From the NCBI GenBank assembly GCA_003151335.1, contig PLXE01000100.1:1-60442 (forward strand): a stretch of 60,442 bases of DNA, in the 5' to 3' direction. The stretch is from Acidobacteriaceae bacterium (lineage in GTDB: Bacteria; Acidobacteriota; Terriglobia; Terriglobales; Acidobacteriaceae). The first letter of the stretch is position 1. Every line of letters begins with the position of its first letter. The notes below the pieces were generated by a model that was not told the origin of the DNA, searched no databases, and saw nothing but the letters and a program-made list of their open reading frames with translations. The position numbers and the translations under genes are program-made. Positions 377 to 34,102 of this stretch are shown piece after piece.

Positions 377-432
377 CTAATCCCTAAACCCCTAGCCCCT
401 AGCCCCTAGCCCCTAACCCCTAGCCCCTGGTT
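377..432. repeat. Heptamer array 1 (CCTAGCC type)
   Basis: Eight consecutive 7-bp units (CTAATCC, CTAAACC, CCTAGCC three times, CCTAACC, CCTAGCC, CCTGGTT). In the sense of the adjacent minus-strand permease gene the array reads AGGGGCT and begins four bases after the TGA stop. It belongs to the family of 7-bp-period arrays found throughout the window. Confidence 0.85.
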
Positions 433-436
433 GCCC

Positions 437-2950
437 TCACTCGCTCCGCAGCGCCTTCATGGGATCTACCAAGGCCGCTCGGCGAGCGGGGATGAGAGCT
501 GCCAGAGAAGCCACAGCGCAGACCAGCAAAGTTCCCAACAAGAGCGTGAGCGGATCGCTGGGGCTGACCCCAAACAGCACGCTGCGCAACAGCCGCGCCA
601 GCAGCAGAGAAACCGGCAGACTTACGGCGATGCTGACGCCGGCAAGCCACAGCACATCCACCAGCACCAGCCGCATGACGCTGCTGCGCTGTGCCCCCAG
701 GGCCATCCGAATACCGATTTCGCGGGTGCGTTGCGCGGTCGCGTAGGCCAGCACGCCGTAGAGCCCGATGGCGGCCAGCAGAATGGCCAGCCCGCCGAAG
801 CTGATGGCCAGCAAGGCAGTCAGGCGCTCGACCGAGAGGTTGTCGGCAATCTGCGCGTCCATGGTCCGCAGATCGCTCAGCGCCAGTTTGGAATCGAGTT
901 GCTGCATGGCGCCGCGGATCCCGGAGAGCGCCGCGTCCGGCGGCTGCCAGGTGCGCACCAGGAAAACCAGCCCGCTGGGATTGTCCAGTTGGAAGCGCGG
1001 GCGGTACACCGTGCGCTTGATGTCGTCGCGCACCCGCGCATGGCGCGTGTCTCCGACGACGCCCACGATCTCGGTGTCCTTCTTCCCTCGCGAACCACCG
1101 AAGCCGATGAAGTGACCAGGAGCGTTCTGCGGAGTACCGAAGAAGTGGCGCGCAAATGCGACGTTCACAGTGGCGACATTTGGTTTGCCCATGACATCGT
1201 CGTCGGTGAAGTCCCGCCCCGCCAGCAGCGGCGTCTGCATGGTGGCGAAGTAGCCGGGAGTCACGGCCGGCTGCTCGACGTCCATGTCTTCGTCTTCGCG
1301 GTCGTTGTATCCGGCGATCACGATGTTGCCGCTGTCATTGTCGTTGGCGAGATCGGGATCGTCGGTACCGGCAACGGCGCGCGTACCCGGCAGCGCCGAA
1401 AGCGTCTGCAACACGCGGCGGTACAAGGGGAAGACCTGATCGGTTTGATAACCCGCCAGGCGCGGGTTGATGCCGAAGCTGACCAGGTGATCGGTGGCAA
1501 AGCCGACATCCAGCGTGCGCAGGTTGTGCAGAGTACGGACGAACAGGCCGGCGCCGACCAGCAGCAGCAGACTGAGTCCGATTTGCACCGCAACCAATGC
1601 GCGGCGAAAGCGCAACTGTCCGCCGCCGGAGGTCGTGCTCTGCTGCTTGAGCGAATTAGCGAGATCGGGATGCAGGAAGCGCAAAGCAGGCGCCAAACTA
1701 AACAGCAAGCTGACGACCAGCGCCAGCGCGAAGGTGAACAGCAGGATGCGCGCGTCCACGCTTGACGAAAACGGCAGGTCGGGGGCGGTGTCGCCGGCAA
1801 TCCGGTGAATCAGCAAGGACGAAACCGCCGGCGCCATGAGCAGACCTAGCGCACCGCCAAGCAGGCCGAGCAGCAGACCTTCGGCGAGCAACTGGCGGAT
1901 GATCTGCCAGCGGCCCGCGCCCATGGCATAGCGCACCGACATCTCGCGTACGCGTCCCGCCGCCCGCACCAGCAGCAGGCTTGAGACGTTCACGCAGGCC
2001 ATCAGCAACAGCAGCACCACCATGCCCATCACGATCATTACTGGCGTGCCGATCTGGTCGCGCAGCGGCGAGAAACCGCGCGCGCTGTCCAGCACCAGAA
2101 TGTGCGATTCGTCCAGATAAGTGCGGCGCAGGTGCTCGGACGCGTTGGGAATCTTGGCCAGCTCAGCCGCGCGCAGTGCGTGCCACAGCGGTTGCAAGCT
2201 GGCTTCCGCCTGGCCGCGACTGACTCCGGGCTTCAGCCGGCCCACGACCATCATCCAGTGCGAATTGAAATCGTCCAGGTCCTGCCAGCGCGGGGTGATG
2301 ATGTTCTTGGTGGTGAGCGGAACAAAGACTTCTTCCGTGGCGCCGGCGACGATGCTGTGGAATCCCGGTGGGGCCACGCCCACGATGGTGAACGGATGCG
2401 TATTGATGAGCAAGGTCTGGTTGATCACGCCCGGATCGGAGCCGAACTGCCGCTTCCAGTAGTTGAAGCTCAGCACGACTACCGGACTGCTGTTGGGTAC
2501 GTCGTCGGCGGGAAGAAACAGGCGGCCCATCGCAGGCTGCAGGCCCAGCGCCTGGAAGTAGTTGCCGGAAGCCAGTTCGCAGCCAACCAGGTCGGGCTTG
2601 TTGTTCCATTGCACGCTCACGTTCTGCAGGTCGCTGGCGATCAGGCTGTCGAACACGCTGCTCTGGTCGCGCAGGTCGCGGTACATGGGATAAGAAAAAT
2701 AGCCGTGATCGTCGCCGCCGAAGGTGTTGAAGTGGCCGCGCGTGGAGCCGGTGAATTGCAGGCGCACCAGTTGCTCAGGATGGCTGACCGGCAAGGAACG
2801 CAACAGCGCTTGGTCCAGCAAGGTGAAGATGGCCGTGTTGGCGCCGATGCCGAGCGCCAAAGTTACGACGGCGACGAGCGTGAAGACGGGCGCCTTGCGC
2901 AGTTGACGCAGCGAGAAACGGAGATCGTGGAGAAGCTGCATTGTTTTCAC
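437..2950 (-). CDS. ADOP-type ABC transporter permease (MacB/FtsX superfamily, duplicated unit)
   Basis: Predicted inner-membrane permease of 837 residues, matching the roughly 800-residue acidobacterial duplicated orphan permeases. It opens with LRFSLRQLRKAPVFT and a first membrane segment (about 20-42), followed by a periplasmic MacB-like core (to about 290), an FtsX block of three membrane segments (about 295-425), a second single segment with periplasmic core (about 450-690), and a last FtsX block (about 715-830) ending ARRAALVDPMKALRSE. No ATPase gene is adjacent, which is normal for this family; the cognate ATPase and substrate are unknown. It lies 73 bp downstream of a second, diverged family member on the same strand, so co-transcription is plausible, although a heptamer array sits between them. 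The family call is secure; the function (export or lipoprotein handling) is inference. Confidence 0.93.
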   Translation of the reverse strand: MKTMQLLHDLRFSLRQLRKAPVFTLVAVVTLALGIGANTAIFTLLDQALLRSLPVSHPEQLVRLQFTGSTRGHFNTFGGDDHGYFSYPMYRDLRDQSSVFDSLIASDLQNVSVQWNNKPDLVGCELASGNYFQALGLQPAMGRLFLPADDVPNSSPVVVLSFNYWKRQFGSDPGVINQTLLINTHPFTIVGVAPPGFHSIVAGATEEVFVPLTTKNIITPRWQDLDDFNSHWMMVVGRLKPGVSRGQAEASLQPLWHALRAAELAKIPNASEHLRRTYLDESHILVLDSARGFSPLRDQIGTPVMIVMGMVVLLLLMACVNVSSLLLVRAAGRVREMSVRYAMGAGRWQIIRQLLAEGLLLGLLGGALGLLMAPAVSSLLIHRIAGDTAPDLPFSSSVDARILLFTFALALVVSLLFSLAPALRFLHPDLANSLKQQSTTSGGGQLRFRRALVAVQIGLSLLLLVGAGLFVRTLHNLRTLDVGFATDHLVSFGINPRLAGYQTDQVFPLYRRVLQTLSALPGTRAVAGTDDPDLANDNDSGNIVIAGYNDREDEDMDVEQPAVTPGYFATMQTPLLAGRDFTDDDVMGKPNVATVNVAFARHFFGTPQNAPGHFIGFGGSRGKKDTEIVGVVGDTRHARVRDDIKRTVYRPRFQLDNPSGLVFLVRTWQPPDAALSGIRGAMQQLDSKLALSDLRTMDAQIADNLSVERLTALLAISFGGLAILLAAIGLYGVLAYATAQRTREIGIRMALGAQRSSVMRLVLVDVLWLAGVSIAVSLPVSLLLARLLRSVLFGVSPSDPLTLLLGTLLVCAVASLAALIPARRAALVDPMKALRSE

Positions 2951-2970
2951 GCCTTTAGCATTTGGTACTT

Positions 2971-3026
2971 TCCACTAACCACTAACCACTAATCGCTAGC
3001 CCCTGGCCCCTATCCCCAAGGCCCTA
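2971..3026. repeat. Heptamer array 2, ending in the stop codon of the upstream permease gene
   Basis: Eight 7-bp units run without interruption (TCCACTA, ACCACTA twice, ATCGCTA, GCCCCTG, GCCCCTA, TCCCCAA, GGCCCTA). The last three bases of the last unit (3024-3026, CTA) are the complement of the TAG stop of the 3024-5558 gene. The heptamer sequence drifts along the array from CCACTA to CCCCTA while the 7-bp register is kept. Confidence 0.85.
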
Positions 3027-5558
3027 CTCCATCCGCAGGGCCTGCATAGGCTCAATGGACGCTGCACGGCGCGCGGGCAGATAACTTGCCAGCAATACTG
3101 TCGCCACCAGGATGGCCATGGCCGCAATCCAAGGCAGAGGGTTCAACATCCCGACCTTAAATAACAGGCTGGAAAAAATGCGGCTGGACGCCAGGGCCGC
3201 CAACCCGCCAAACATTACTCCGACGACGGCGAGCCGCAGACCTTGCAGCAACACCAACTGCATCACCTCGCCACGCTGTGCGCCCAGCGCCAGGCGCACA
3301 CCGAGTTCGCGGGTGCGCATTCGCACCGAATAGCTGATAACGCCGTACAGCCCAAGCGCCGCCAGCAGCAGCGCCAGCCCGGCAAACGTGGTCAGCAGCA
3401 GCACCACAAAGCGGCGTCCGATGAGCGACTCGTCTACGCGCTGCTCCATGGTCTTCACGTCATAGATGGGGACGCTGGATTCCACCGAGCGCACGGCTGC
3501 GGCCAGATCGCCCTTCAAGTCCGCGGACGAGCGCGAACTGCGCACCACAATGGTGGCCGACAACTGCGGGAGCTGCGCGGCGTTAAAGTAGTAGAAGCCC
3601 TCGTTGGTGTCCGACTCTAGTGACGAGGCGCGGGCATGGGCCACCACGCCGACGATGGTGTACCACGGTCCCTTCACACGATCGTCAAAGGAAATATGTT
3701 CGCCGATCGCACTTTTGCCCGGCCAATATTGGCGCGCAAGAACAGTGTCAACGATGGCGACCCGTTCGGTGCCCTGATGATCTTGCGGAGTGAAGTCCCT
3801 TCCCATCATTAGGGGCTCGCGCAAGGTGGAGAAATATCCCGGCGAGACAACGCGGACATTTCCGTGAGGTCCGGGATCGTTCGGTCCTGCGGGGCGGCCC
3901 TCGATGAAAAAGCTGGCGGAGCCACCATTGCTGTCGAAGGGCACGGAGTCGGCGAGCGCCGCGCTGCTCACGCCGGGAATACTGTGCAACCGGTCTTGCA
4001 GTGCGCGGTAGAACGCTGCCACCTTCGCGTCGCTGGCATCTTGCGCTGCCGCCGCTTCCTTGGCCGCAGCTTCCTTGGCGGCTGCATCCTTGACTGCCGA
4101 AGCGCTGGTCACCGGTGGGGTCACACCGTAGATCGACTGCGGCAGCGAGAAGCGCGCCGATAGCAAGCCACTGGGCTGGAAGCCGGTTTCGATTTGCTCC
4201 AGCGCTTTGAGGCTGGTCAGCAGCAGGCCCGCGCCGGTGAGCAGCAAGAGCGAGAGCGCAATCTGCGCCACCACCAGCGACGAGCGCGCGCGTTGATGCA
4301 CCAAGCTGAGGCTGCCAGAACGGCCGCCCTCCTGCAGCGCATTGAACCATCCCGGCTGGGTGCGCTGCCACGCCGGAACCAGTCCGCACAGCAGCGAGCA
4401 CAGCGCGGCAATGCCAGTCACAAACAGCAGCACGGGCCCGCGGAAGGAAGGTTGAATCTGCGTGCCCAGCATGTCGGGCAGATAGCGCAGCAACAGCGGT
4501 GCAGTCGCCATCGCCACCACGAAGCCCAGCGCGACTCCGGCGACGGTCAGCACGATGCTTTCCACCAGCGCCTGCCGCAGCAAGCGGACCCGCTGTGCAC
4601 CCAGGGCAACGCGTATGGCCAAATCGCGCTCGCGCGCCGAGGCCCGCGCCATCTGCAATCCCGCGATGTTGGCGCACGCGATCAGCAGCACCATGCCGAC
4701 CGCAATCAGCAGCATGGTGAGCGGCTTGCGCAGGTTGCCGCCAATGAATTCCGTCAGCGGCATGGCGAACATTCCCCATCCGCTGGCGCGGCCGTAACTC
4801 TTGCTGCCCTCAGAGGCGATGTTCTCTTGGGCTTTGCGATCGAGATAGGCGTTTGCCTGCTGCAGAGTTACGCCCGGCCGCAGTCGCTCCACCGCGAACA
4901 GGTTTTCGTTATAGCGATAGTTGGGATCGTGATAGCGCGAAGGCGGAAATGCAATCGGCACCCAAAGTTCTGCCTGGTTCGGCCAGTTGAATGAAGGCCC
5001 CATCACGCCCACGACGCGATACGCCTGGTTGTTGAGCATCAGCGTCTGGCCAACGATGTTGGGATCGGAGCCGAAGCGTTTCTGCCACGCGCGATACGAC
5101 AGCACGGCTTCGTTCGCGCCGCCGGGCTGGTCCTCTTCCGGGGTGAACACGCGCCCCAGATAGGGGCGGACATCGAAAGTGTCGAACCAGCCGGAGGAAA
5201 CTTGGGCGCCATTCAGCAATTCAGGATTGCTATTTTCGCGGGCGTAGTTGAAGCTGCCGGCCTGCATGACCGCGCCCGACGAGAAGATGTTCTTGCCCTC
5301 AGCCGCGTCGCCGAAGTCCGGCGCCGACAGGCTGATGTTGTTGAGATCGGGCATGGCGCGGTAGCGGGCGCGCAACGCGACCAGTCCGCCGGCATGAGGA
5401 ATGCCGCTGGGATTCAGCAGCACCGCGTTGGTGACGGAAAAAACCGCGATGTTGGCGCCGATGCCCAGGGCCAGCGTCAATACCGAGACCGCGGCGAACC
5501 CGGGCGACTTGCGCAGTTGACGCAACGCGTACCGAACTTCATGCAAGATGGTGTGCAT
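3024..5558 (-). CDS. ADOP-type ABC transporter permease with alanine-rich helical insertion
   Basis: An 844-residue paralogue of the neighbouring permease with the same plan: LRYALRQLRKSPGF-like N-terminus (VRYALRQLRKSPGF), two membrane-anchored periplasmic MacB-like cores and two FtsX blocks, ending ARRAASIEPMQALRME. Between the third membrane block and the second periplasmic core, around residues 485-515, it carries an inserted low-complexity stretch with repeated AAAKE units, which should form a straight alpha helix; the neighbouring paralogue has nothing comparable. No ATPase lies nearby. The TAG stop lies inside a heptamer repeat array. The start at 5558 fits the family N-terminus. Upstream is a leader of about 320 nt with a strong hairpin and a perfect TATAAT. 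Family call secure, substrate unknown. Confidence 0.93.
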   Translation of the reverse strand: MHTILHEVRYALRQLRKSPGFAAVSVLTLALGIGANIAVFSVTNAVLLNPSGIPHAGGLVALRARYRAMPDLNNISLSAPDFGDAAEGKNIFSSGAVMQAGSFNYARENSNPELLNGAQVSSGWFDTFDVRPYLGRVFTPEEDQPGGANEAVLSYRAWQKRFGSDPNIVGQTLMLNNQAYRVVGVMGPSFNWPNQAELWVPIAFPPSRYHDPNYRYNENLFAVERLRPGVTLQQANAYLDRKAQENIASEGSKSYGRASGWGMFAMPLTEFIGGNLRKPLTMLLIAVGMVLLIACANIAGLQMARASARERDLAIRVALGAQRVRLLRQALVESIVLTVAGVALGFVVAMATAPLLLRYLPDMLGTQIQPSFRGPVLLFVTGIAALCSLLCGLVPAWQRTQPGWFNALQEGGRSGSLSLVHQRARSSLVVAQIALSLLLLTGAGLLLTSLKALEQIETGFQPSGLLSARFSLPQSIYGVTPPVTSASAVKDAAAKEAAAKEAAAAQDASDAKVAAFYRALQDRLHSIPGVSSAALADSVPFDSNGGSASFFIEGRPAGPNDPGPHGNVRVVSPGYFSTLREPLMMGRDFTPQDHQGTERVAIVDTVLARQYWPGKSAIGEHISFDDRVKGPWYTIVGVVAHARASSLESDTNEGFYYFNAAQLPQLSATIVVRSSRSSADLKGDLAAAVRSVESSVPIYDVKTMEQRVDESLIGRRFVVLLLTTFAGLALLLAALGLYGVISYSVRMRTRELGVRLALGAQRGEVMQLVLLQGLRLAVVGVMFGGLAALASSRIFSSLLFKVGMLNPLPWIAAMAILVATVLLASYLPARRAASIEPMQALRME

Positions 5559-5683: not shown

Positions 5684-5718
5684 AGGCAACTGACAACTGG
5701 CCACTGACAACTGCTGTG
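5684..5718. repeat. Heptamer array 3 (TGACAAC type)
   Basis: Five 7-bp units: AGGCAAC, TGACAAC, TGGCCAC, TGACAAC, TGCTGTG. It lies about 125 bp upstream of the 3024-5558 gene, in its probable leader. It has the same 7-bp period as the other arrays but a different heptamer. Confidence 0.7.
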
Positions 5719-8140: not shown

Positions 8141-9439
8141 ATGCGCATTGCCTATCTCGAATGCTTCTCTGGAATCAGCGGCGACATGTTTCTGGGCGCG
8201 CTGCTCGATGCCGGAGTTCCCTTCGAGTTGTTTCAGAAGACTGTAGCTGGACTCAACATCGGCGCTGAGCTGGAGCACTCGCGGGTTCACCGCGGCGGCA
8301 TCTCTGCAACAAAACTCGACGTCGTCGTAAACGGCAAGAAAGACATGCCGCGTGAGGAGTTCTGGGCGCAACAGCACGCCGGCTCGCAAGAATCCGAGGC
8401 GCAACCTGCGCATAAGCATAGCCACGACCATCACCAGGCCCGCCGTCTGAGCGAGATCCTGCACATCATCGCCGCAGCGCCCATCAGCGAGTACGCTCGG
8501 CGGACCGCCGATGAGATCTTCCTGGCGCTGGGCGCAGCCGAGGCCGCCGTACACAACGTCAGCGTGGAGGAAGTGCACTTCCACGAAGTCGGCGCGGCCG
8601 ACGCGATCGTCGATATTGTCTGCGCAGCCGTTGGCGCTGAGGCGCTCGCGGTCGATCAGTTCCTCGCTTCGCCCCTGAATGTGGGCGGCGGAACCGTTGC
8701 CTGCGCGCACGGCGTCATGCCTGTCCCGGCCCCGGCCACTCTCCAACTGCTGAAGAACGTGCCGATTTATTCTGGCGACATTCAGAAGGAGCTGGTCACA
8801 CCGACCGGAGCGGCCATCGTCAAAGTGTTAGTCTCAAAGTTCGGACCTCGGCCGGTCATGGCGACAGAGCGCATTGGTTGCGGCGCAGGAGCGCGCAATT
8901 TTCCCGGCCATCCCAATGTACTGCGGCTCACCATCGGCGAGGCCCAGGAAGCGGTCACTGACGCAGGCAGCACCGGCGAGAGTGACGACGCGGAAGAAGA
9001 GATCGCCATACTGGAAGCGAATCTGGACGACCTTAATCCGCAGGTGATCGGCTATATCGTCGATCTGGCATTCGCCGAAGGAGCGCTGGACGTCTTCACC
9101 GCGCCGGTGCAGATGAAGAAGAACCGTCCCGGCACCCTGTTGACGGTGCTGTCGCGGCCGGAGCACGAAACTAAATTGCGCGCCCTATTGTTTCGCGAGA
9201 GCAGCACGCTGGGCGTGCGCACGCGCCATGAGAAGCGTTATGCCCTGCCCCGTCGGCACGAGGCGGTGGTCACGCCCTGGGGCGACGTGCGCATCAAGGT
9301 CGCGCATCTCAACGGCTCGGTCTCCCAGTACGCACCCGAATACGAAGATTGCCGGCGCATCGCCGTCGAGCATCGCATCCCGTTGAAGACGGTGATGCAG
9401 GAAGCCATCCGCTTGTACCTGGACCAGAAGAATGCATAA
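8141..9439 (+). CDS. larC: LarC, nickel-pincer cofactor biosynthesis protein
   Basis: 432 residues with the characteristic LarC opening AYLECFSGISGDMFLGALLD and the block VHFHEVGAADAIVDIVCA. In characterised systems LarC inserts nickel into the pincer nucleotide cofactor of lactate racemase and related enzymes, using CTP. Here LarC is one continuous frame, unlike the frameshift-split larC1/larC2 of Lactiplantibacillus. A histidine-rich loop (HKHSHDHH, residues 91-98) may bind metal. The partner genes larB and larE and a LarA homologue are not in this window. The stop overlaps the metG start by eight bases, so the two are probably translated from one message, a combination with no obvious biochemical link. 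Confidence 0.95.
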   Translation: MRIAYLECFSGISGDMFLGALLDAGVPFELFQKTVAGLNIGAELEHSRVHRGGISATKLDVVVNGKKDMPREEFWAQQHAGSQESEAQPAHKHSHDHHQARRLSEILHIIAAAPISEYARRTADEIFLALGAAEAAVHNVSVEEVHFHEVGAADAIVDIVCAAVGAEALAVDQFLASPLNVGGGTVACAHGVMPVPAPATLQLLKNVPIYSGDIQKELVTPTGAAIVKVLVSKFGPRPVMATERIGCGAGARNFPGHPNVLRLTIGEAQEAVTDAGSTGESDDAEEEIAILEANLDDLNPQVIGYIVDLAFAEGALDVFTAPVQMKKNRPGTLLTVLSRPEHETKLRALLFRESSTLGVRTRHEKRYALPRRHEAVVTPWGDVRIKVAHLNGSVSQYAPEYEDCRRIAVEHRIPLKTVMQEAIRLYLDQKNA

Positions 9440-11567
9440 TCCCGAGAAGTTCTACATCACGACGCCCATCTATTACGTCAATGCGCGGCCTCACATTGGG
9501 CACACCTATACCACGGTGGTGTGCGATGCCATTGCCCGCCGCCAGCGCATGATGGGGGCCGACACCTGGTTCCTGACCGGCACCGACGAACATGGCCAGA
9601 AGATTGAGCGCTCGGCCGCCGCTGCCGGCTGCTCACCCAAAGAGTTCGTTGCCAAGATCTCGGGCGAATTCCGCGCGCTGTGGGACCGCATGAAGATCTC
9701 CTACGACGACTTTATTCGCACCACGGAGCCGCGCCATGTTCGCGGCGTGCAGGCGTTGTTCACGCGCTTGCAGGAGCGCGGCTACATCTACAAGGGATCG
9801 TACAGCGGGCAATATTGCGTCTTCGACGAACTTTACGTCGATGCTGTCGGCCCCGGGGCTCCCTGCCCCGAATGTGGGCGTCCCACCGAAACCGTGCACG
9901 AAGAGAATTACTTCTTCAAACTTTCGGCCATGCAAGAGCGCCTGTTGCAGTACTACAGCGACAACCCCGATTTCATTCGCCCGGAAACCCGGCGCAACGA
10001 GGTCATCGCTTTCGTGCGCAGCGGACTGCGCGATCTCTCCGTCAGCCGGACATCGTTCAAGTGGGGAATTCCCGTGCCGGGCGATCCTAAGCACGTGATT
10101 TATGTCTGGCTGGATGCGCTGGCCAATTACCTGACCGCGATCGGATTTGGCTCCGACGATCCCGCGGACCAGCAAAAACTGGAGCGCTACTGGCCGGCCG
10201 ATGTGCACATGATTGGCAAAGAAATCGTGCGCTTCCATTGCGTTTATTGGCCGGCATTTCTGCTGGCCGCCGATCTGCCGCTGCCGAAATCCATCATCGC
10301 GCACGGCTGGCTGCTCTTCGAAGAGAGCAAGATGTCAAAGTCGCGCGGCAACATCGTGCGCAGCGAAACCATCCTCGACACGCTTGGCGGCGACGCACTG
10401 CGCTATTTCCTGTTGCGCGAAATTGTCTTCGGGCAGGATGGATCGTTCAGCTTCGATGCCCTGGTGCAGCGCTTTAACGCCGATCTGGCCAATGACCTGG
10501 GCAACTTGTCGAGCCGCACGCTCAGCATGATCACCCGTTATTTTGACGGCGAAGTGCCCTATCCATCGCCCAGCGAGACGTCGCCTGCCGATGAGAGTAT
10601 CGCTGCGCTGGCGCAGAAAACTATTGCGGGCTTCCACGCCCAGTTCGAGCAATTTCAATTCTCGCGCGCGCTGGAAACCGCGTGGTCTTTGGTGGCCGCG
10701 GTCAATAAGTACATCGTCGAGAACGAGCCGTGGGCCGTCGCCGAGCGCGAAGATAGAGACTCGCGTGCCCGCCTCGCCACCATTCTGTACACGTCCGCCG
10801 AGGCGCTGCGGGTGGTCACCGCGCTGGTGCATCCGATTATTCCAGAGGCCACGGCCCGCATCTGGACACAACTCGGGCTGGGTGAGATCAGCCAATTGGA
10901 CCTGCGCACGTTGGCTTGGGGAAACTTGCCGCTGGGCACCAAGCTGGGCAAGGTCGAAGGCGTATTTCCGCGGGCCGACAAGAGCACGGTCGAAAGGATG
11001 CAACAGATGGAACAGCAGCGCTCCGCTGATCTAGCGCAAGCGAGTGAGAAACCGGCAGCGGCGGAAGCGCAGCCCGCCGCAAGCGGCGCGCAGCCGGAAC
11101 GGCCCGCCACCCAAGCAGCCGGAGTGCCATCACCTGCGGCGCCGCCGAAAGAGTCCGGTGCGATCGTCAGTCCGAAGACCACGCCTGCCACAGGCACCCA
11201 GGGCGGAGGCGTGACTGCGGCTGCCGCGGCCAACAACAATCAGATCACCATCGACGATTTCCTGAAAATCGAATTGCGCGTGGGCGAAGTGAAGGTTGCC
11301 GAGCGCGTGAAGGGCACCGACAAGTTGCTTCGTCTGGAAGTCGATATCGGCAGCGAAGTGCGCCAGGTCGTCGCCGGAATTGCCAAAGCTTACGAACCGG
11401 AAAAGCTCATCGGGCGGAAGGTCGTGATCGTAGCCAATCTGCAACCACGCAAGCTGCGCGGGTTGGAATCGAACGGAATGATCGTGGCTGCCTCTGTCGG
11501 CGACGATGGCCAGCCGGTCCTGGCGGGATTCTTGGAGGACGTACCGGCGGGCGCGAAGCTGAAATAG
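9432..11567 (+). CDS. metG: Methionyl-tRNA synthetase with C-terminal tRNA-binding domain
   Basis: 711 residues. It charges tRNA-Met with methionine. Catalytic Rossmann core with HIGH at residues 21-24 and KMSKS near residue 300, then the anticodon-binding helical domain (about 370-530), a long Ala/Pro-rich linker (about 540-595), and an EMAP/Trbp111-type dimerising tRNA-binding domain (about 604-711, containing IELRVGEVKVAERV and VVIVANLQPRKLRGL). The zinc-knuckle region (about 127-150) shows YCVFD followed by CPECG, so the first CxxC pair has lost its second cysteine. The ATG lies inside the larC end. The TAG stop is the first three bases of a heptamer array. Confidence 0.97.
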   Translation: MHNPEKFYITTPIYYVNARPHIGHTYTTVVCDAIARRQRMMGADTWFLTGTDEHGQKIERSAAAAGCSPKEFVAKISGEFRALWDRMKISYDDFIRTTEPRHVRGVQALFTRLQERGYIYKGSYSGQYCVFDELYVDAVGPGAPCPECGRPTETVHEENYFFKLSAMQERLLQYYSDNPDFIRPETRRNEVIAFVRSGLRDLSVSRTSFKWGIPVPGDPKHVIYVWLDALANYLTAIGFGSDDPADQQKLERYWPADVHMIGKEIVRFHCVYWPAFLLAADLPLPKSIIAHGWLLFEESKMSKSRGNIVRSETILDTLGGDALRYFLLREIVFGQDGSFSFDALVQRFNADLANDLGNLSSRTLSMITRYFDGEVPYPSPSETSPADESIAALAQKTIAGFHAQFEQFQFSRALETAWSLVAAVNKYIVENEPWAVAEREDRDSRARLATILYTSAEALRVVTALVHPIIPEATARIWTQLGLGEISQLDLRTLAWGNLPLGTKLGKVEGVFPRADKSTVERMQQMEQQRSADLAQASEKPAAAEAQPAASGAQPERPATQAAGVPSPAAPPKESGAIVSPKTTPATGTQGGGVTAAAAANNNQITIDDFLKIELRVGEVKVAERVKGTDKLLRLEVDIGSEVRQVVAGIAKAYEPEKLIGRKVVIVANLQPRKLRGLESNGMIVAASVGDDGQPVLAGFLEDVPAGAKLK

Positions 11568-11613
11568 TGGCTAGTGGATAGTGGCTAGTGGATAGTGACT
11601 AGCGGGTAGAGTT
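11565..11613. repeat. Heptamer array 4 (TAGTGGC/TAGTGGA), starting with the metG stop codon
   Basis: Seven units: TAGTGGC, TAGTGGA, TAGTGGC, TAGTGGA, TAGTGAC, TAGCGGG, TAGAGTT. The TAG of the first unit is the metG stop. Because 7 is not a multiple of 3, successive TAGs fall in successive reading frames, so any three units close all three frames. Confidence 0.9.
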
Positions 11614-12143: not shown

Positions 12144-12178
12144 AAACTATCCACTAGCCACTAATCACTATCCACTGT
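12144..12178. repeat. Heptamer array 5, running into the tatD start codon
   Basis: Five units: AAACTAT, CCACTAG, CCACTAA, TCACTAT, CCACTGT. It is the reverse complement type of array 4 (AGTGGAT/AGTGGCT), so the two arrays bracket the 149-residue gene as inverted repeats. The GTG start of tatD at 12177 uses the last two bases of the final unit. Confidence 0.85.
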
Positions 12179-12986
12179 GTACACCGACTCCCACGCTCAT
12201 CTCGATGGCAAGCGCTTCGACGCGGACCGCGCCGAAGTCATCGCGCGCGCCAACCAAGCGGGTGTCAGGACCCTGCTCGCGATCGGCAATGGCGACGGAC
12301 CCGGGACGGGCACGCTCGACTGCGCCATCAAACTCGCCCAGCAGTACGACTGGATTTACGCGACGATCGGAGTTCATCCTCACGAAGCCGAGCTGGCCAA
12401 ACCGTCGGACTTTGACGAACTCGAACGCTTGGCGAAATCACCCAAGGTAATCGCCTGGGGCGAGATTGGCCTTGATTATTTTTACGACCACTCGCCTCGC
12501 GATGTCCAGCAACGAGTCTTCCTGCAGCAGATGGAGATGGCCCGCGCCGCCAAGCTGCCCATCATCATTCACTGCCGCCCCTCCAACAACAGCGACAACG
12601 CCTGGGACGACGTGCTGCGCCTGATCGGAGAAAACTGGGCGGCCAGCGGATTTGGCGGCGTGCTGCACTGCTTCACCGGCACTGTCGATCATGCTCGTGC
12701 AGCGCTTGATCTGGGATTCATGATTTCCTTCGCCGGCAACATCACCTTCCCCAAGGCGCAAAGCATTCGCGACGCGGCCAGCATCGTCCCGCTCGATCGC
12801 ATGTTCATCGAGACCGACTGCCCTTATCTTGCGCCGGCGCCCCATCGCGGTCAGCGCAATGAACCTGCCTTCGTGGTTGAAGTCGCCCGCCAGATCGGGC
12901 AGCTACGTAATCTTTCCTGCGAGGAAGTCGGACAGCAGACGACCGCCAATTTCCACAACTTTTTCCGGCTTACAAAATCCGACTGA
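12177..12986 (+). CDS. tatD: TatD-family metal-dependent hydrolase (DNase-like)
   Basis: 269 residues, the normal size for TatD/YcfH. Metal-binding and catalytic motifs of the amidohydrolase-type barrel are all present: DSHAHLD (H6, H8), GEIGLDYFYD, IIHCR, LHCFTG and FIETDCPYLAP. Family members act as 3'-5' DNA exonucleases or D-aminoacyl-tRNA/peptide processing enzymes; the exact substrate cannot be read from sequence. Protein homology begins right at the GTG start (residue 1 precedes the TDSHAHLD strand), yet the bases immediately upstream are a heptamer repeat with no Shine-Dalgarno sequence and an in-frame TAA at 12162. Initiation must therefore be SD-independent, or the natural leader has been replaced. 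Confidence 0.94.
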   Translation: MYTDSHAHLDGKRFDADRAEVIARANQAGVRTLLAIGNGDGPGTGTLDCAIKLAQQYDWIYATIGVHPHEAELAKPSDFDELERLAKSPKVIAWGEIGLDYFYDHSPRDVQQRVFLQQMEMARAAKLPIIIHCRPSNNSDNAWDDVLRLIGENWAASGFGGVLHCFTGTVDHARAALDLGFMISFAGNITFPKAQSIRDAASIVPLDRMFIETDCPYLAPAPHRGQRNEPAFVVEVARQIGQLRNLSCEEVGQQTTANFHNFFRLTKSD

Positions 12987-15282: not shown

Positions 15283-15858
15283 ATGTCCATTCCCCAGGAA
15301 GTTGAAATCAAGTTTCTCGTTTCCGATCTGAAAGCGCTTGAGCGGAAGCTGCGCGAGTTGGGGTTTCACGAACAGACGCCATCTACCCACGAGGTGAATA
15401 CCCTTTACGATCTTCCCGGCCAAAAACTGCGCCGCAAGGGCGAACTACTGCGCCTGCGCGACTACGGCGGCAACTGGAGGCTGACGCACAAGGCCAAGGC
15501 CAAACTCGGAAGGCACAAGTCTCGCGGCGAGTTGGAGACGGGTGTCTCCGATGGCAAGCAGATGGACGCGATCCTGCGCGCGTTGGGTTACTCGCCGTCG
15601 TTCATCTACGAAAAGTTTCGTGCCGAATGGAGTGACCACGCAGGGCATGTCGTGCTGGACCACACGCCCATCGGCGATGTCGCTGAGATCGAAGGCAAGT
15701 CACGCTGGATTGATCGCATCGCTCGCGAGCTGGGAGTGAAGCCAGCAGACTACATCACCAAGTCGTACGCTGAACTTTTCTTCGACTGGAAACGTAGAAC
15801 AGGTTGTAAGGCAGAGAACATGACATTCCGCGAGGTGAAAGGCAGGGCTAGGGGCTAG
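15283..15858 (+). CDS. CYTH-domain protein (class IV adenylyl cyclase / triphosphatase family)
   Basis: 191 residues with the CYTH signature EVEIKF (ExExK) at residues 6-11, followed by the tunnel-fold basic and acidic residues: LRRKGELLRLRDYG, LTHKAK, RGELETGV, YEKFRAEW, LDHTPIGDVAEIEG. These line a tunnel that binds a triphosphorylated substrate with divalent metals. Members range from CyaB cyclase to thiamine triphosphatase; the long ELGVKPADYITKSYAELF end is typical of the CyaB-like branch, but the substrate is not predictable. The last four codons and the TAG stop come from the first units of a long GGGGCTA array, so the C-terminal RARG is repeat-encoded. Confidence 0.88.
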   Translation: MSIPQEVEIKFLVSDLKALERKLRELGFHEQTPSTHEVNTLYDLPGQKLRRKGELLRLRDYGGNWRLTHKAKAKLGRHKSRGELETGVSDGKQMDAILRALGYSPSFIYEKFRAEWSDHAGHVVLDHTPIGDVAEIEGKSRWIDRIARELGVKPADYITKSYAELFFDWKRRTGCKAENMTFREVKGRARG

Positions 15859-15969
15859 GGGCTAGGGGCTAGGGGCTAGGGGCTAGGGGCTAGGGGCTAG
15901 GGGCTAGGGGCTAGGGGCTAGGGGCTGGTTTGAAGTTTCGAGTTTCGAGTTTCAAGTTTCAAGTGAGAA
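15844..15969. repeat. Heptamer array 6: GGGGCTA units fused in register to GTTTCGA units
   Basis: About eleven GGGGCTA units (ten perfect) from 15844 to 15927 are followed, in exact 7-bp register, by GTTTGAA, GTTTCGA twice, GTTTCAA twice and GTGAGAA (15928-15969). Two unrelated heptamers in one uninterrupted register, eighteen units in all, is the clearest sign that the period, not the sequence, is what is maintained. Confidence 0.95.
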
Positions 15970-19673: not shown

Positions 19674-19708
19674 CAGTAGCCAGTTGCCAGTAGCCAGTTG
19701 CCAGTTTC
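19674..19708. repeat. Heptamer array 9 (CAGTAGC/CAGTTGC)
   Basis: Five units: CAGTAGC, CAGTTGC, CAGTAGC, CAGTTGC, CAGTTTC. It begins at the base after the aguA TAA stop and is oriented with TAG in the sense strand. Confidence 0.85.
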
Positions 19709-19728
19709 ACGAGGAAGATTGTTGAGCT

Positions 19729-19922
19729 GTCATCCCGAGCAACGAGCACAGAAGGTGTCATCCTGAGCGGAGCGCCCGCAGGGAATTTCTGCCCCGCTGG
19801 TTTTGCGGGTCGGGCGGGCGCGGAGTCGAAGGACCCCTATAGCTGCAAGAGATCACAAAGTGAGTGAGCCGGATAGGGTTCCTTCGACTCCTCGCTGCGC
19901 TCGTCGCTCAGGATGACACTCC
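19729..19922. repeat. Inverted pair of REP-like repeats (TCATCCTGAGCG ... GTCGAAGGACCCCTAT)
   Basis: The left arm reads GTCATCCTGAGCG, an interrupted GC-rich palindrome, then GGAGTCGAAGGACCCCTAT (to 19839). The right arm is its inverse: ATAGGGTTCCTTCGACTCC through CGCTCAGGATGAC (19876-19919). An extra GTCATCCCGAGC half-site lies at 19729. The same motif family occurs at 7737-7809. Confidence 0.65.
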
Positions 19923-20003
19923 AAAATAATCCGGGTTCAACGGGTGCAGGCGTGGTCCACCCACCCCTATACACCAGATGTGAAACTGCTATGCCGGCCC
20001 CTA

Positions 20004-20377: not shown

Positions 20378-20453
20378 TGGTGAGCCCGGCAGGAATCGAA
20401 CCTGCGACCCACGCATTAAAAGTGCGTTGCTCTACCAACTGAGCTACGGGCCC
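20378..20453 (-). tRNA. tRNA-Lys (anticodon UUU)
   Basis: On the minus strand the sequence folds as a complete cloverleaf: acceptor GGGCCCG with CGGGCTC, D-loop AGCTCAGTTGGTAGAGC, anticodon loop CTTTTAA (anticodon TTT), and T-arm GCAGGTTCGATTCCTGC. Discriminator A and an encoded CCA follow (complement of 20378-20380). Confidence 0.97.
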
Positions 20454-28015: not shown

Positions 28016-28057
28016 CTGATAACCGACAACTGGCTACTGATAACTGACTACTGCTTC
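28016..28057. repeat. Heptamer array 10, containing the stop codon of nfeD
   Basis: Six units: CTGATAA, CCGACAA, CTGGCTA, CTGATAA, CTGACTA, CTGCTTC. The nfeD TAG stop is the complement of 28048-28050, the end of the fifth unit; in the sense strand the array runs on as TAGTCAG, TTATCAG. Confidence 0.8.
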
Positions 28058-29331
28058 TCCACTTCCAATTCCAGACCCTCGACCTTGCGCACCACGACGT
28101 GCTCCCCAAGGCCGACGCGCGAGCGGGCGTGCGCGTTCCACAGCTCGCCCTGGACAAAGACCTTCCCTTCCGGATCGATATCGGTGCGCGCTTCACCCAC
28201 CGCGCCGATCATGCCTTGCAGTCCGGTAACGACTTTGCTGCGTCGCGCTCGCAGGGCAATGGTCATCAGAAACACCGTGATCAGACCCAGCGGCACGCTG
28301 ACCCCGAGCGCCGTCCATAGCTGCACCCTCATTTGCGGAATGGGGCCATCCACCAGCAACAGCCCACCCAACGTGAGCAGAACTATCCCGCCGAGGCCAA
28401 GGATGCCGTGGGTCGCAAATTTGGCTTCCAGGGCAAACAGCACGAATGCGGCAAGGATGAGGGTCAACGAAGCGTAACGCGTGGGCAGCAGGTTGAGCGC
28501 GAACAGCGCCAGCAGAATAAAAACCACCCCCACCACTCCGGGCACGATGGCGCCTGGGTGATTGAACTCGGCGTAGAGCGCGAGCGCGCCGACCGCCAGC
28601 ACCAGGAAGGCAATGTTGGGATCGAGCAGGAAGTTCAGGATTCGTTGCTTCAGCGTCATGGGCAATTCGTCGATCGAGTCGCCGGCGAGATGCAGCTTCG
28701 CCGTCTTGCCATCGAAGCGCTTGATGGTGCGGCCGTCGAGCTGATGGAGCAAGTCGTTCTGATCGCGAGCCACCACGTCGATGAGGTGCTGCTGCAAAGC
28801 TTCCTGGTCGGTCCACGACTTCGACTCGCGCACCCCGGTCTCCGCCAGTTGCACGTTGCGTCCCCGAGGCCCGACGTAGGAGCGCATGAAAGCGGCGGAG
28901 TCGTTCTCGAGCTTGGCCTTCATGGTGTCGTCCATCTTCTCGCCACCGAGGGTGACGGGATGCGCCGCACCGGTGTTGGTCCCCGGAGCCATGGCTGCAA
29001 CGTCGCCGGCTTCGAGGATGAAGAAGCCCGCAGACGCCGCTCGCGCCCCGCTGGGCGCCACGTAGATGATGATCGGGACGGGCGAAGCCAGGATCGTCTG
29101 GATGATCGTACGCGTGGAATCCAGCAGGCCGCCGGGCGTGCTCAGTTCGATCAGCACGGCGTCGGCGTTGGTCTGGCGAGCGTGTTCGATGGCGCGGTCG
29201 ATGTACTCGGCCGTAATCGGCTGAATGGTGTCATCTATGCGGATCTTGACGATGCTGTTCGCTGCAGCCGCGCTGGTGGCGAACAGCGCCACCAGCAGCC
29301 CACAGCAGAGAATGAAACGAATCCGGGACAT
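28048..29331 (-). CDS. nfeD: NfeD-family membrane-bound serine protease (ClpP-like)
   Basis: 427 residues from ATG 29331, which has AAGGAGG close upstream and opens a signal peptide (FILCCGLLVALFATSAAAA). An upstream in-frame ATG (29355) lacks such a site. The ClpP-like domain carries STPGGLLDSTR and APSGARAASAG with the probable nucleophile S100; four membrane segments follow (about 222-345), then a C-terminal OB-fold domain (GMIGAVGEARTDIDPEGKVFVQGELW). Full-length NfeD proteases cleave stomatin C-termini in archaea, and the slipin gene next door is the expected partner. The stop codon lies within a heptamer array. Confidence 0.94.
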   Translation of the reverse strand: MSRIRFILCCGLLVALFATSAAAANSIVKIRIDDTIQPITAEYIDRAIEHARQTNADAVLIELSTPGGLLDSTRTIIQTILASPVPIIIYVAPSGARAASAGFFILEAGDVAAMAPGTNTGAAHPVTLGGEKMDDTMKAKLENDSAAFMRSYVGPRGRNVQLAETGVRESKSWTDQEALQQHLIDVVARDQNDLLHQLDGRTIKRFDGKTAKLHLAGDSIDELPMTLKQRILNFLLDPNIAFLVLAVGALALYAEFNHPGAIVPGVVGVVFILLALFALNLLPTRYASLTLILAAFVLFALEAKFATHGILGLGGIVLLTLGGLLLVDGPIPQMRVQLWTALGVSVPLGLITVFLMTIALRARRSKVVTGLQGMIGAVGEARTDIDPEGKVFVQGELWNAHARSRVGLGEHVVVRKVEGLELEVEKQ

Positions 29332-29461
29332 GTGTGCCTCCTTCCGGAGGGTCATTGCCGCTGGCCACTAAGAGCAGTGGTCCCAGCGCGACAAGCGCGC
29401 CAGCAGCAGTGCCGGGAAATGTGGCGACTACGCCGGCGTTTGCCTCCCGGCGGCACTCTTA

Positions 29462-31988: not shown

Positions 31989-32618
31989 ATGATCCACGAG
32001 ATCTTCCCGGTCGGCCCGCTGCAGTGCAATTGCTCGGTGATCGGCGATGAACAAACCAAAGAGGCCATGGTCATCGATCCCGGCGATGACATCGAAGACG
32101 TGATGTCCGTCATACAACATCACGGGCTGACGGTGAAGCAAATCGTCGTCACCCACGCGCACATTGACCACGTGGGCGGAGCGACCAAGCTGAAGCGTCT
32201 GACCGGCGCGCCCATTCTGCTGAACCAGAACGACAACGCTCTGCTGAAGATGCTGCCGGTGCAGGCAACCTGGCTCGGCATGTCTCCGCCGGAGAAGGTG
32301 GTGATCGACGCCAGCCTCAACACGGGCGACCAAGTCCGCGCGGGCAGCCTGGTTGCGGACGTTCTGCATACGCCCGGTCACACCGAGGGCAGCATCTGCC
32401 TGTATTTCGCGCCCGAGAAGAAGCTGATCGCGGGCGATACTTTGTTCGCGGGCTCGATTGGCCGCACCGACTTGCCGGGTGGCTCCTACAAAAAGATCAT
32501 GCAGTCGTTGCACGGCCCCGTACTGGCGCTGCCCGACGAGACCATCGTGGTGCCCGGACACGGACCGCTCACCACCATCGGCGAAGAGCGCGCCACCAAT
32601 CCTTTCCTGGTGGGGTGA
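31989..32618 (+). CDS. Metallo-beta-lactamase-fold hydrolase (glyoxalase II-like)
   Basis: 209 residues. Two-zinc hydrolase with THAHIDHVGG (HxHxDH, about 56-65), HTPGHTEGSIC, AGDTLFAGSIGRTD and VVPGHGPLTTIGEE. The lack of the extra C-terminal helices of true glyoxalase II places it with the small hydroxyacylglutathione-hydrolase-like or sulfur-dioxygenase-like group; the natural substrate is unknown. It stands alone, and the next gene is convergent. A heptamer array starts five bases after the stop. Confidence 0.93.
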   Translation: MIHEIFPVGPLQCNCSVIGDEQTKEAMVIDPGDDIEDVMSVIQHHGLTVKQIVVTHAHIDHVGGATKLKRLTGAPILLNQNDNALLKMLPVQATWLGMSPPEKVVIDASLNTGDQVRAGSLVADVLHTPGHTEGSICLYFAPEKKLIAGDTLFAGSIGRTDLPGGSYKKIMQSLHGPVLALPDETIVVPGHGPLTTIGEERATNPFLVG

Positions 32619-32622
32619 AACA

Positions 32623-32664
32623 ACTCGCTTCTCGCTATTCGCTTTTCGCTATTCGCTATTCGCC
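32623..32664. repeat. Heptamer array 11 (ATTCGCT type)
   Basis: Six units: ACTCGCT, TCTCGCT, ATTCGCT, TTTCGCT, ATTCGCT, ATTCGCC. It is complementary in type to array 12 about 70 bp away (AGCGAAA), so the pair could form a long imperfect hairpin between two convergent genes. Confidence 0.85.
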
Positions 32665-32716
32665 GGACAGCGCACTTCAAGTTCTTCTACCCTGAATTCC
32701 TAATCTCGGACAAGCT

Positions 32717-34102
32717 TTAGACAAATTTTGCTTTGGCGAGGAGCGAAGAGCGAAAGGCGAAAAGCGCCTCCCCCTCAGCCGCCAGTTCCTGCTTAAACAA
32801 TCTGCGCACAGTAACGCTTTGCGGCACTACGAGCACGAGGAGGTAAGACAAAATCGTTCCGCCAATCACGCCCAGCGAGCCGATGTGCCGCACCAGCGCG
32901 ATGGACAACGCGATATTCACCACCGCCGCCACGATCGACAGTGCGGCCTGCTCACGTATCCGGTTCATGGCCGCCAGCAGACAGGATTCGACGCTCATGA
33001 ATCCGCTGATTAGCGCCCACACTCCCATCGCCAGTAACAGAGAAAATGTCGGCACTGCCGCCGCACCCGCCCACAAGCGAATCAATGCGCGGCCACACAC
33101 GACCAGCACAGCCACGCAGCACAGATTGAGCGCGACCGTGCCCTTCATGGTCAGGGAGAAGGTGCGCCGTATCCAGCCATAGTCGCGTTTGGCATAAGCT
33201 TCTGCGTAGGCCGGCCAGAGCGCGGGAAAGATGAGCGATTGCAGTACCGCGGCGAATCCCACCAGTCGCCAGGTAACGCTGTAAGGCGTGACCTCTGCCG
33301 CTCCCAGATAATGGCTGACGACAATATTGTCGGAGCTGAACACCACCACCGCCGCCACTTGGATCAGAAAAAAGGAAGAGCCGGAGTTAAGCAGTTCCCT
33401 GCTGGTCGAGCGGTCCAGCAGCGATGGCCGGGGCAGGAGCCACGGCTTGTGCCACGTGACCACAAAAATCAGATTAGCCAGGCTGGCAAAAGTCAGGCAT
33501 CCCACCGACATCACAAACAGCATCGGCATCGAGACGCGCAAGACGATGCCCAGAACAAGCCCGAATACGCTGGCTACCGCGCCCGCGCAGACAGCGTAGT
33601 TGTTGCGATGCAGCTCCTGGTAGCCGGCGAGAAGTTTCGCGCCTAAGGTGCACGGCAGGCCAAGCAACATCAGTGCGGCCGCAACCAGCACCGTGCCTCG
33701 CACCTCGGCCGCCGGCACGTTCGCGCTCACGTTGAACAACCTCATCCAGTTCACGCGGGAACAGACGGCGGCGAATGCTCCGCCCACAAACGCTGCAATG
33801 GTTCCGGTGACCAGCAGCGCGTTGGTGAAATAGCGCGCGGCGGAAGCCTTGTCGTCCAGCGCGTACGCTCGCGAGATGCTGTTGGTTAAGGTGTTGGCGA
33901 TGCCGAGGTCCAGCAGGTTGATCCACACTACGGTGGTGGTGATGGTCGCCCACACGCCATAGCGTTCGGCGCCCAGGTAGCGCACGGCGAGGGGCAACGA
34001 CACCAGCGTGATTGCCGCCGACAGCAACCTCGCGGCAGCGCCCGACGACACCGCCTTCGCGATTCGACCGTAACGGGATGCCGGCAAGCACGTTGAGGAC
34101 AT
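32717..34102 (-). CDS. Polysaccharide flippase (MATE/MOP superfamily, Wzx-like)
   Basis: 461 residues from ATG 34102. Twelve or more hydrophobic segments over the whole length, with the N-terminal helix ARLLSAAITLVSLPLAVRYLG and GVWATITTTVVWINLLDLGI typical of oligosaccharide flippases. It would flip an undecaprenyl-linked glycan or a similar lipid-linked unit to the periplasm. It is the last gene of the gmhA-hldE-GT9 operon, 10 bp after GT9, so its cargo probably contains heptose or is part of the same surface glycan. An in-frame start at 34192 would overlap GT9, so I prefer 34102. The last 12 or so residues (ALFAFRSSLLAK) are encoded by a heptamer array and need not be part of the fold. Confidence 0.88.
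   Translation of the reverse strand: MSSTCLPASRYGRIAKAVSSGAAARLLSAAITLVSLPLAVRYLGAERYGVWATITTTVVWINLLDLGIANTLTNSISRAYALDDKASAARYFTNALLVTGTIAAFVGGAFAAVCSRVNWMRLFNVSANVPAAEVRGTVLVAAALMLLGLPCTLGAKLLAGYQELHRNNYAVCAGAVASVFGLVLGIVLRVSMPMLFVMSVGCLTFASLANLIFVVTWHKPWLLPRPSLLDRSTSRELLNSGSSFFLIQVAAVVVFSSDNIVVSHYLGAAEVTPYSVTWRLVGFAAVLQSLIFPALWPAYAEAYAKRDYGWIRRTFSLTMKGTVALNLCCVAVLVVCGRALIRLWAGAAAVPTFSLLLAMGVWALISGFMSVESCLLAAMNRIREQAALSIVAAVVNIALSIALVRHIGSLGVIGGTILSYLLVLVVPQSVTVRRLFKQELAAEGEALFAFRSSLLAKAKFV
32735..32769. repeat. Heptamer array 12, inside the flippase coding sequence
   Basis: Five units: GGCGAGG, AGCGAAG, AGCGAAA, GGCGAAA, AGCGCCT. It lies in the last 20 codons of the flippase and inverts the type of array 11. 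Confidence 0.8.

Follow-up and report, generated by a model that had tools for sequence, protein, structure and literature searches.

Tandem arrays with a strict 7-bp period occupy the edges of genes in a stretch of 60,442 nucleotides from an Acidobacteriaceae bacterium (assembly GCA_003151335.1), hereafter the window, which is an entire contig (C21, PLXE01000100.1) of a genome of 4.65 Mb in 121 contigs. Period-7 arrays are in excess in this genome, lie at gene edges, are read preferentially outward from the gene and face, in paired gaps, an inverted arm that matches them in unit class more often than expected, while at orthologous junctions of congeners they may be present, absent or made of other units. 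Since related species have different units or no insert at some of these sites, something keeps adding and remodelling DNA at gene edges in seven-base steps.

Period-7 arrays and their outward sense at gene edges

The arrays of the window were detected with Tandem Repeats Finder and with a match/mismatch scorer run against local dinucleotide shuffles. The first-pass annotation, made from the letters alone, had listed 13 arrays with an exact 7-bp period, and Tandem Repeats Finder gave a period-7 row, with 0% indels in the rows, at all 13 places, the weakest rows being 32624-32650 (score 33; a stronger row covers 32632-32663), 2996-3026 and 28016-28053 (34 each) and 32742-32766 (36). Eight period-7 segments scoring at least 12 were found in the window, compared with none in 100 local dinucleotide shuffles, and the other periods from 2 to 30 gave only multiples of 7, plus one segment at period 15 and one at 17. 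A genome sample of 836 kb, composed of the window, further contigs and stretches on contigs C69, C22 and C82, held 69 arrays at this cut-off, the top non-multiples among the other periods tested (3–15 and 21) being 9 (11 arrays) and 15 (8 arrays); the sample is biased, its contigs having been picked for a match to a CTAGCCC pattern and the C69, C22 and C82 stretches being the surroundings of such matches. Intergenic regions 40 bp or longer (113.6 kb in all) contain 73 period-7 arrays scoring at least 10, compared with a mean of 0.1 and a maximum of 1 in 20 per-region shuffles, and periods 5, 6 and 8–12 gave 1–3 arrays in the same DNA. The shuffle comparison proposed in the annotation has thus been run, period-7 arrays standing far above the controls both in the window and in intergenic DNA, and the 13 arrays are confirmed as real and above chance. 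Its other proposed check, on independent assemblies, was made at the level of congeners (window DNA identity over aligned parts of 89.2% for G008, 90.0% for G007 and 87.3% for G003): in these, some of the same junctions also bear arrays, and an assembly artefact was rejected, since separately assembled congeners have the same layout.

Genes were called with a codon-usage caller and, at named loci such as those of other phyla, with a bare open reading frame (ORF) caller, and single edges may be wrong. Inside called genes lie 8 of the 91 arrays of the 836 kb that score at least 10, and 50 of the 55 arrays at 3' edges are found between -16 and 10 bp of the stop codon. Arrays occur in 19 of 94 convergent, 31 of 333 co-directional and 7 of 123 divergent gaps. 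An AG or CT keeps its phase in 76 of the 91 arrays, compared with 38.9 after column permutation, and in most arrays an AG rung recurs every 7 bases when the array is read outward from the gene, whatever the direction of the gene. As a raw rule, AG outward is obeyed by 64 of the 83 arrays not inside genes and violated by 17, with 2 ambiguous; the violators are mainly arrays distant from an edge, arrays spanning a whole gap and the class TTCGCTN, that is, TTAGCTN with its A turned to C, and one array of G003 passes from TTCGCTN into TTAGCTN. With a sense specific to each class and clear edges only, outward arrays number 69 and inward ones 3; this leaves aside the 8 inside genes and another 11 whose edge is unclear.

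Since the unit classes had been named from the same arrays on which these class tests run, a class-free test of sense was added, in which outward sense agrees in 318 of 338 pairs of similar arrays from different intergenic regions and, in congeners, in 300 of 311 pairs; the pairs are not independent and the congener set includes orthologs of several species. Edge arrays read outward form AG-only ladders in 55 of 72 cases here and 40 of 71 in congeners, and CT-only ladders in 6 of 72 and 11 of 71. Another genus (G014, 400 kb) has 20 period-7 arrays, compared with at most 11 at any other non-multiple period, its units including AGTACCN, GAGCTNN and GTCGTTN and its class-free agreement being 9 of 11 pairs. 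Array-poor single-contig genomes of the family also exist, with no array in 200 kb of G056 (score at least 10) and with none and 3, respectively, in 100 kb each of G041 and G071 (at least 12).

Several unit sequences are indeed present, as the first-pass annotation had stated, but they are not the unrelated units it supposed: most show the AG rung outward, and the units, instead of being arbitrary, belong to a small set of about seven classes, found repeatedly in the genome and having a preferred outward sense. The same holds at 15844-15969, where two units were held to be unrelated and joined in perfect register; the register stands, as a 7-base AG ladder (once GG) crosses the junction, whereas the unrelatedness does not. 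The annotation had missed that the arrays sit at gene edges and read outward, and likewise the inverted pairs of matching units and the empty sites. Invariant columns number 4.07 per array, compared with 3.31 under random placement, a bias that fits a kept anchor with free bases, yet is inflated by the duplication of mutated units. By eye, four tracts of at least three G on one strand, as in a G-quadruplex, are found only in the AGGGG class (e.g. 377-432 and 15844-15927), the other classes having no runs of three G.

Inverted pairs, and junctions filled or empty in related species

Arrays lie on both edges of 22 gaps. The 5-mer similarity of the arms read outward is 0.508 within a gap, 0.115 between gaps and 0.053 with one arm flipped (permutation p 0.0005), and the arms are of the same class in 13 of the 22 pairs, compared with 3.3 expected and a maximum of 9 in 2000 permutations; in congeners the figure is 7 of 17 pairs (3.0 expected, permutation maximum 7). 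Same-class inverted pairs are known for six of the seven unit classes. The foldback trait, inverted arms of short tandem repeats about a variable centre, is present in the paired gaps, many arrays being unpaired. The filler between the arms is often unique, measuring about 15 to 330 bp at the sites examined. Among 27 stretches between any two neighbouring arrays 25–330 bp apart outside genes, not each a proven pair, 16 occur nowhere else in the 836 kb, in a search whose threshold stretches of about 30 bp could hardly reach, and one 96-bp filler is single-copy across the whole genome. A simple miniature inverted-repeat transposable element (MITE) with a common interior was rejected on these counts.

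Many of the remaining stretches between arrays contain dispersed palindromes, which also occur in gaps that lack arrays: of 39 array-bearing regions 21 have them, compared with 89 of 346 others (regions with at least 100 unmasked bases). Long ones, of the GTCATCCTGAGCG...CAGGATGACA and AGCCCAGCGC...GCGCTGGG types, take up many of the intergenic regions (about 19720-19990 in the window; many gaps in L009-L048). Only two Y1 transposase matches were found in this genome.

Among 494 3' edges with a gap of at least 30 bp, the stop is TAG in 29 of the 54 with an array and in 168 of the 440 without (p 0.04). Moreover, the TAG stop is itself a rung in 16 of the 27 TAG cases with a scorable ladder (1/7 expected, p 8e-8), and at C95 76186 the TAG is constant, by eye, while the subsequent units differ among this genome, G008 and G005. 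As the TAG stop itself frequently serves as the first rung, this codon is likely to seed or re-seed arrays at 3' ends. Stop-codon seeding was rejected as the sole cause, since divergent gaps have arrays too (7/123), and has been retained as a partial one. A function as three-frame stop codons was also rejected: AGTTTCR and CAGTTGY contain no stop when read outward (CAGTAGY has one), and arrays at 5' edges need none.

The comparison with congeners gives a view of array turnover. At 15858-16161 this genome has 12 AGGGGCT-type units and AGTTTCR, whereas G008 and G002 have a single AAGGGCT and AGTTTCR, and G003 and G007, with the same flanks, have a few AGGGGCT units, a different filler and a CT array in place of AGTTTCR; the 12-unit array (15844-15927) would most simply be an expansion within this lineage. 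The right edge at 2941-3024 carries the AGTGG/AGGGG class here and the CAGTAGY class in G007, the other edge in G007 being an AGCAATT array. At 19674 the CAGT is constant in nearly all units of this genome, G008 and G003, while the bases after it vary and G007 has no array; in the G008 ortholog of the array at 28016-28057 the units are more regular. The proposal of the first-pass annotation is thus supported in part: the period persists while the sequence changes, congeners having other units at 15858-16161, at 2941-3024 and, on contig C95, at 104159 and 105186, and the template-directed process that it suggested would be one possibility.

Orthologous junctions were compared in 137 cases, 25 of which have an array in at least one species, 12 in every compared species and 13 in only some. 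Junctions were also read in the complex I operon, identified by Pfam (Fer4, Oxidored_q3, Oxidored_q2, Proton_antipo), the genes of which we take to be those of NuoI, NuoJ, NuoK and NuoL. At NuoI/NuoJ the two genes share an ATGA or GTGA in G003 and G005, where they overlap, and arrays with filler are found in this genome, G008, G007 and G001. Of the 14 genomes readable there among the family and genus loci, 8 have the overlap, 5 have arrays (one of them, L162, from another genus and with a unit of its own) and 1 has an array-free 19-base gap; since 8 of the 14 overlap, the empty state would most simply be ancestral. The junction at C95 104159 is filled in some species and empty in others, with units swapped as well; C95 29038 is empty here and filled in G001, C95 89270 is empty here and filled in G008, about two units are left in G008 at C95 87807, and C95 72930, empty here and in G008, is filled in G007 and in G003, though not with the same content. 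The G003 filler at this last site, between TTCGCTN arms, contains an open frame of 116 codons (MEKWLVGFG...), hydrophobic in places, which extends past the start of the next gene. These filled and empty congener versions of one junction, a respiratory operon included, make the process testable, and the arrays show one way in which intergenic DNA is created in bacteria, even between overlapping genes.

In locus L145 the arms meet in register at a palindromic AGCT, without filler (by eye). The NuoK/NuoL gap is mostly made of heptads in L145 (G069), L146 (G075), L167 (G081) and L168 (G049), with AGCTNNN units in L167 and CCAACGA in L146, and the heptads run into the start codon in L145 and L146.

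Related repeats in other bacteria and the origin of the arrays

The short tandemly repeated repetitive (STRR) sequences of heterocystous cyanobacteria likewise combine several types of tandem heptanucleotide unit within a single genome. The likeness to cyanobacterial repeats drawn by the first-pass annotation is a fair one, as CAGTNNN arrays occur, among the matches listed, in Microcoleus, Okeania, Scytonema, Calothrix and Microcystis. Five CAGTNNN units were scanned against GTDB, which gave 80 loci among the matches listed, and a scan of the phylum added 10, some organisms giving several loci; the matches listed include Cyanobacteria, Parabeggiatoa, Chloroflexi, Planctomycetes, Bacteroidetes, Acidobacteria and others. 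The 121 CAGTNNN arrays of these listed and added loci comprise 66 outward and 21 inward arrays no more than 80 bp from a gene edge, 21 at a greater distance and 13 inside ORFs, the counts within 15 bp being 43 outward and 10 inward. Without the 10 and six named acidobacterial loci, the listed matches still give 56 outward and 19 inward (38 and 9 within 15 bp). Neighbouring CAGT arrays at most 400 bp apart are, among the same matches, convergent in 16 cases, divergent in 2 and tandem in 8 (13, 2 and 8 in the reduced set). The outward sense and the inverted pairing of CAGTNNN arrays therefore recur in other phyla, with exceptions.

The arrays here have the marks of bacterial intergenic heptanucleotide repeats, namely a strict 7-bp period, at least about three units, a position near start or stop codons and a Xanthomonas-like outward sense. 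According to Rehm et al. (2015, PMC4692102), GGGAATC repeats are found on the antisense strand up to 50 bp ahead of an ORF, or on the sense strand no more than 50 bp from the stop, and their convergent pairs number 70 and 75 in two Xanthomonas species. The repeats are under-represented between divergent ORFs, overlap stop codons in some cases and differ in length and sequence between species; a Calothrix STRR report is also cited there. GGGAATC and GGGGA(C/T)T of Xanthomonas and Nostoc share with the arrays here the period of 7, the intergenic location and the outward rule, but are of one G-rich unit type per genome, treated as a G-quadruplex, whereas here the rule extends over seven classes, the majority of them not rich in G, a given site can exchange its units, the two arms of a pair tend to be of one class and empty junctions have been demonstrated. 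The outward rule is thus in print for one unit (GGGAATC in Xanthomonas, PMC4692102) and is extended here to seven classes in one genome.

The TAACTGA repeats (MacGregor 2015, PMC4679880, text available in part) belong to Beggiatoaceae, cyanobacteria and Bacteroidetes, are mostly intergenic and have been proposed to act in translation; in Maribeggiatoa they run mostly toward the start codon, relatives having shorter repeat-free junctions. TAACTGA is CAGTTAT when read outward, near the CAGTNRY class here, but it is a single heptamer, and neither inverted pairing nor several classes under one rule was found described in the available part of that paper. Both sources, in the parts available, treat heptanucleotide repeats one unit at a time and with unit-specific roles (quadruplex, translational regulation). 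Since the seven classes here and the CAGTNNN arrays of other phyla share the outward sense, a cause within any one unit sequence is unlikely. In a literature coverage which was partial, and thin for subscription journals, no paper was found that deals with acidobacterial heptads or with a single rule covering several units.

The favoured explanation, which we consider plausible though still tentative, is one of small foldback-like inserts with the arrays as arms, followed by heptad turnover through slippage and hairpin copying. The insert would consist of an outward heptad array, a short filler and an inverse array, sited in intergenic DNA. Such inserts would arise repeatedly at gene junctions, their arms would later be remodelled in 7-base steps by replication slippage, and the two arms could template one another via the hairpin they can form, with no benefit to the cell needed. 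An insert with inverted ends would explain the outward sense, the pairing and the empty sites, while slippage and hairpin copying would explain the change of units. Foldback elements such as Galileo of Drosophila likewise have long inverted repeats that are internally repetitive, but Galileo, in the part of the source available (PMC3573991), has a transposase sequence, and none equivalent was found here.

A number of observations weigh against this explanation, apart from the naming of classes on the tested arrays. The arms are of unlike class in 9 of the 22 pairs, the congener value of 7/17 is reached by permutations, and the sharing of exact 8-mers is only a little higher within a pair (0.55) than between same-class arms elsewhere (0.44). 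Many arrays have no detected partner, and some ladders are CT-only when read outward (6/72 here, 11/71 in congeners). The palindromes in fillers mean that some inserts may be independent of the arrays, the excess in convergent gaps could be explained by constraint alone, and the RTGA on both sides at NuoI/NuoJ, although compatible with a target-site duplication, is also required for the survival of both genes. As a universal rule the outward sense meets exceptions in the available text of two reports, with eight TAACTGA sets reverse to the start codon in a Microcystis sample (PMC4679880) and few paired repeats in Nostoc (PMC4692102).

No machinery, moreover, was identified among the Ku, Y1 transposase and reverse transcriptase profiles. 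The pattern CAGTNNN x4 was found in 55 of 198 genomes of the phylum, and the 41 with at least 5 matches, overlapping matches of one array counting separately, were taken as array-rich; some of the other 157 may carry other classes. The reversed pattern TGACNNN, with 8 + 8 matches here and more than the forward pattern in several genomes, is the other strand of CAGTNGT arrays, hence a dependent control which was left unused. The profiled genomes were at least 85% complete, so that single misses are possible, and the p-values ignore relatedness. Matches to Ku (PF02735) were found in 17/41 array-rich genomes and 49/157 others (Fisher p 0.26), to Y1 transposase (PF01797) in 33/41 and 92/157 (p 0.011) and to reverse transcriptase (RVT_1) in 23/41 and 45/157 (p 0.0015). 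There was no match among the array-rich genomes in 24/41 for PF02735, including the two richest, G127 and G138, in 8/41 for PF01797, e.g. G184 (146 CAGT pattern matches) and G208 (42), and in 18/41 for RVT_1. As far as genomes at least 85% complete can show, none of the three is therefore required, and Ku end joining, a RAYT/Y1 transposase and, although commoner, a reverse transcriptase were each rejected as a requirement.

Plain simple-sequence repeats offer a simpler account, which is possible but not probable: the polymerase would slip preferentially by 7 bases, a proposal of Mrazek's group as related in the available text of PMC4679880 and PMC4692102, and arrays would persist where frameshifts are harmless. 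The dominance of period 7, the avoidance of genes, the heptads in many phyla (among the matches listed) and a fast change of unit number and sequence, with a 12-unit array most simply grown in this lineage, all agree with it. Nevertheless, slippage accounts for period and turnover and not for sense or pairing, and is therefore strained by the outward rule: alone, it does not predict a sense shared on both sides of a gap (318/338 pairs), matching inverted arms, few recurring classes or whole inserts in zero-length gene overlaps. Retention of selected cis-elements at gene ends (an RNA hairpin, a terminator, a G-quadruplex or a protein-binding ladder) is unlikely. It could draw on the invariant columns (4.07 vs 3.31), on the constant CAGT followed by variable bases in three species at 19674 and on the available text of Rehm et al., where the repeats are mostly transcribed and the consensus folds as a quadruplex (PMC4692102); most units here, however, have no G-runs, arrays at 5' edges have, in the mRNA, the opposite sense to those at 3' edges, two arms that differ in class could not pair, the duplication of mutated units also raises the column bias, and arrays are missing from some orthologous junctions and from 200 kb of one single-contig genome of the family.

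REPINs are small inverted intergenic units with a fixed REP sequence and a RAYT transposase, whereas here the arms vary and some array-rich genomes have no Y1 match. A transposase-driven miniature element, REPIN- or MITE-like and with heptad terminal repeats, is quite unlikely: inverted ends, empty sites and insertion at gene ends would be expected of it, and Y1 is somewhat commoner in array-rich genomes (33/41 vs 92/157), but many fillers have no copies, 8/41 array-rich genomes gave no match to Y1, the only family profiled, and no conserved end past the heptads was noticed, no systematic search for one having been made. We consider it very unlikely that the window is accounted for by 3'-end extension at broken gene junctions, in which both ends would be lengthened by 7-base steps and then joined. 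This would yield the outward sense at both edges directly and would suit the L145 arms, which meet at AGCT in register without filler (by eye), as well as the commoner reverse transcriptase of array-rich genomes (23/41 vs 45/157); Ku, on the other hand, is not needed (17/41 vs 49/157, with no match in G127 and G138), 18/41 array-rich genomes have no RVT_1 match and no break was observed. The broader proposal of a widespread bacterial process that extends both 3' ends by 7-base steps at gene junctions before joining, leaving inverted heptad arms, is doubtful, albeit compatible with outward sense, matching arms, AGCT-joined arms without filler and unique fillers. Each step would comprise a short kept anchor (AG, CAGT or AGCT) and one to few free bases and, if true, end extension would be a telomere-like or polymerase-theta-like addition inside the chromosomes of many phyla, without Ku.

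The arrays of the window and neighbouring features

From the left end of the window, a minus-strand array of the AGGGGCT class (377-432) reads leftward, away from the 3' end of gene 437-2941(-), and one of the AGTGG/AGGGG class (2971-3026, -) runs outward from the stop of gene 3024-5558(-). The CAGTTGT-class array at 5684-5718 (-) lies 122 bp from the gene on its left and 601 bp from that on its right; its edge is not assignable and it was scored as a violation. The TAGTGGN array (11565-11613, +) begins on the TAG stop of the methionyl-tRNA synthetase gene 9432-11567(+), with TAG rungs every 7 bases, and an AGTGGAT-class array (12144-12178, -; CT on the plus strand) lies immediately before the called start of the TatD DNase gene 12177-12986(+).

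The array of 12 AGGGGCT-kind units (15844-15927, +) starts inside the end of 15283-15858(+), which encodes a CYTH domain, and is followed in register by the AGTTTCR array (15928-15969, +). Beyond them is a perfect 10-bp inverted repeat, CCGGCTCCGG / CCGGAGCCGG, with a 24-base loop (16029-16072), noted by eye and, also by eye, conserved in the five species compared; arrays start about 5 bp or less from its right end, as they do at a gene edge, and it sets the next inverted pair apart from the arrays on its left. The left (AG) arm of this pair, of class AGTGATT (16077-16111, +), is nearer to the right gene and points outward only relative to the inverted repeat, and the right (CT) arm, of class AGTGGAT (16137-16171, -), overlaps the TAG stop of the deoxyhypusine synthase-like gene 16161-17234(-). 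A CAGTNGC array (19674-19708, +) comes right after the stop of the peptidyl-arginine deiminase-like gene 18543-19673(+), and a weak CAGTNRY array (28016-28057, -) runs outward from the 3' end of the NfeD-like gene 28048-29355(-). The left arm of the TTCGCTN pair (32623-32664, +) lies 5 bp past the stop of 31989-32618(+) and breaks the plain AG rule, C replacing A, while the right arm (32735-32769, -) is within the called 3' end of 32717-34051(-). The inverted pairs of the window are thus one by the AG rule (16077/16137) and one of TTCGCTN (32623/32735).

A scan with Rfam gave no gathering-level match covering an array. An Acido-Lenti-1 RNA match was obtained at 219-265 (-), about 110 bp from the first array, with 49.4 bits against a gathering threshold of 37, and two tRNA genes at 20381-20453 (-) and 43640-43713 (-). 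The Acido-Lenti-1 match is the one hint obtained of the acidobacterial-type genome named in the first-pass annotation. Elsewhere, ARAGORN placed a tRNA-Leu(cag) at L017:1826-1912 (+) and a tRNA-Gln(ttg) at L023:18517-18590 (-), both within array-bearing intergenic regions.

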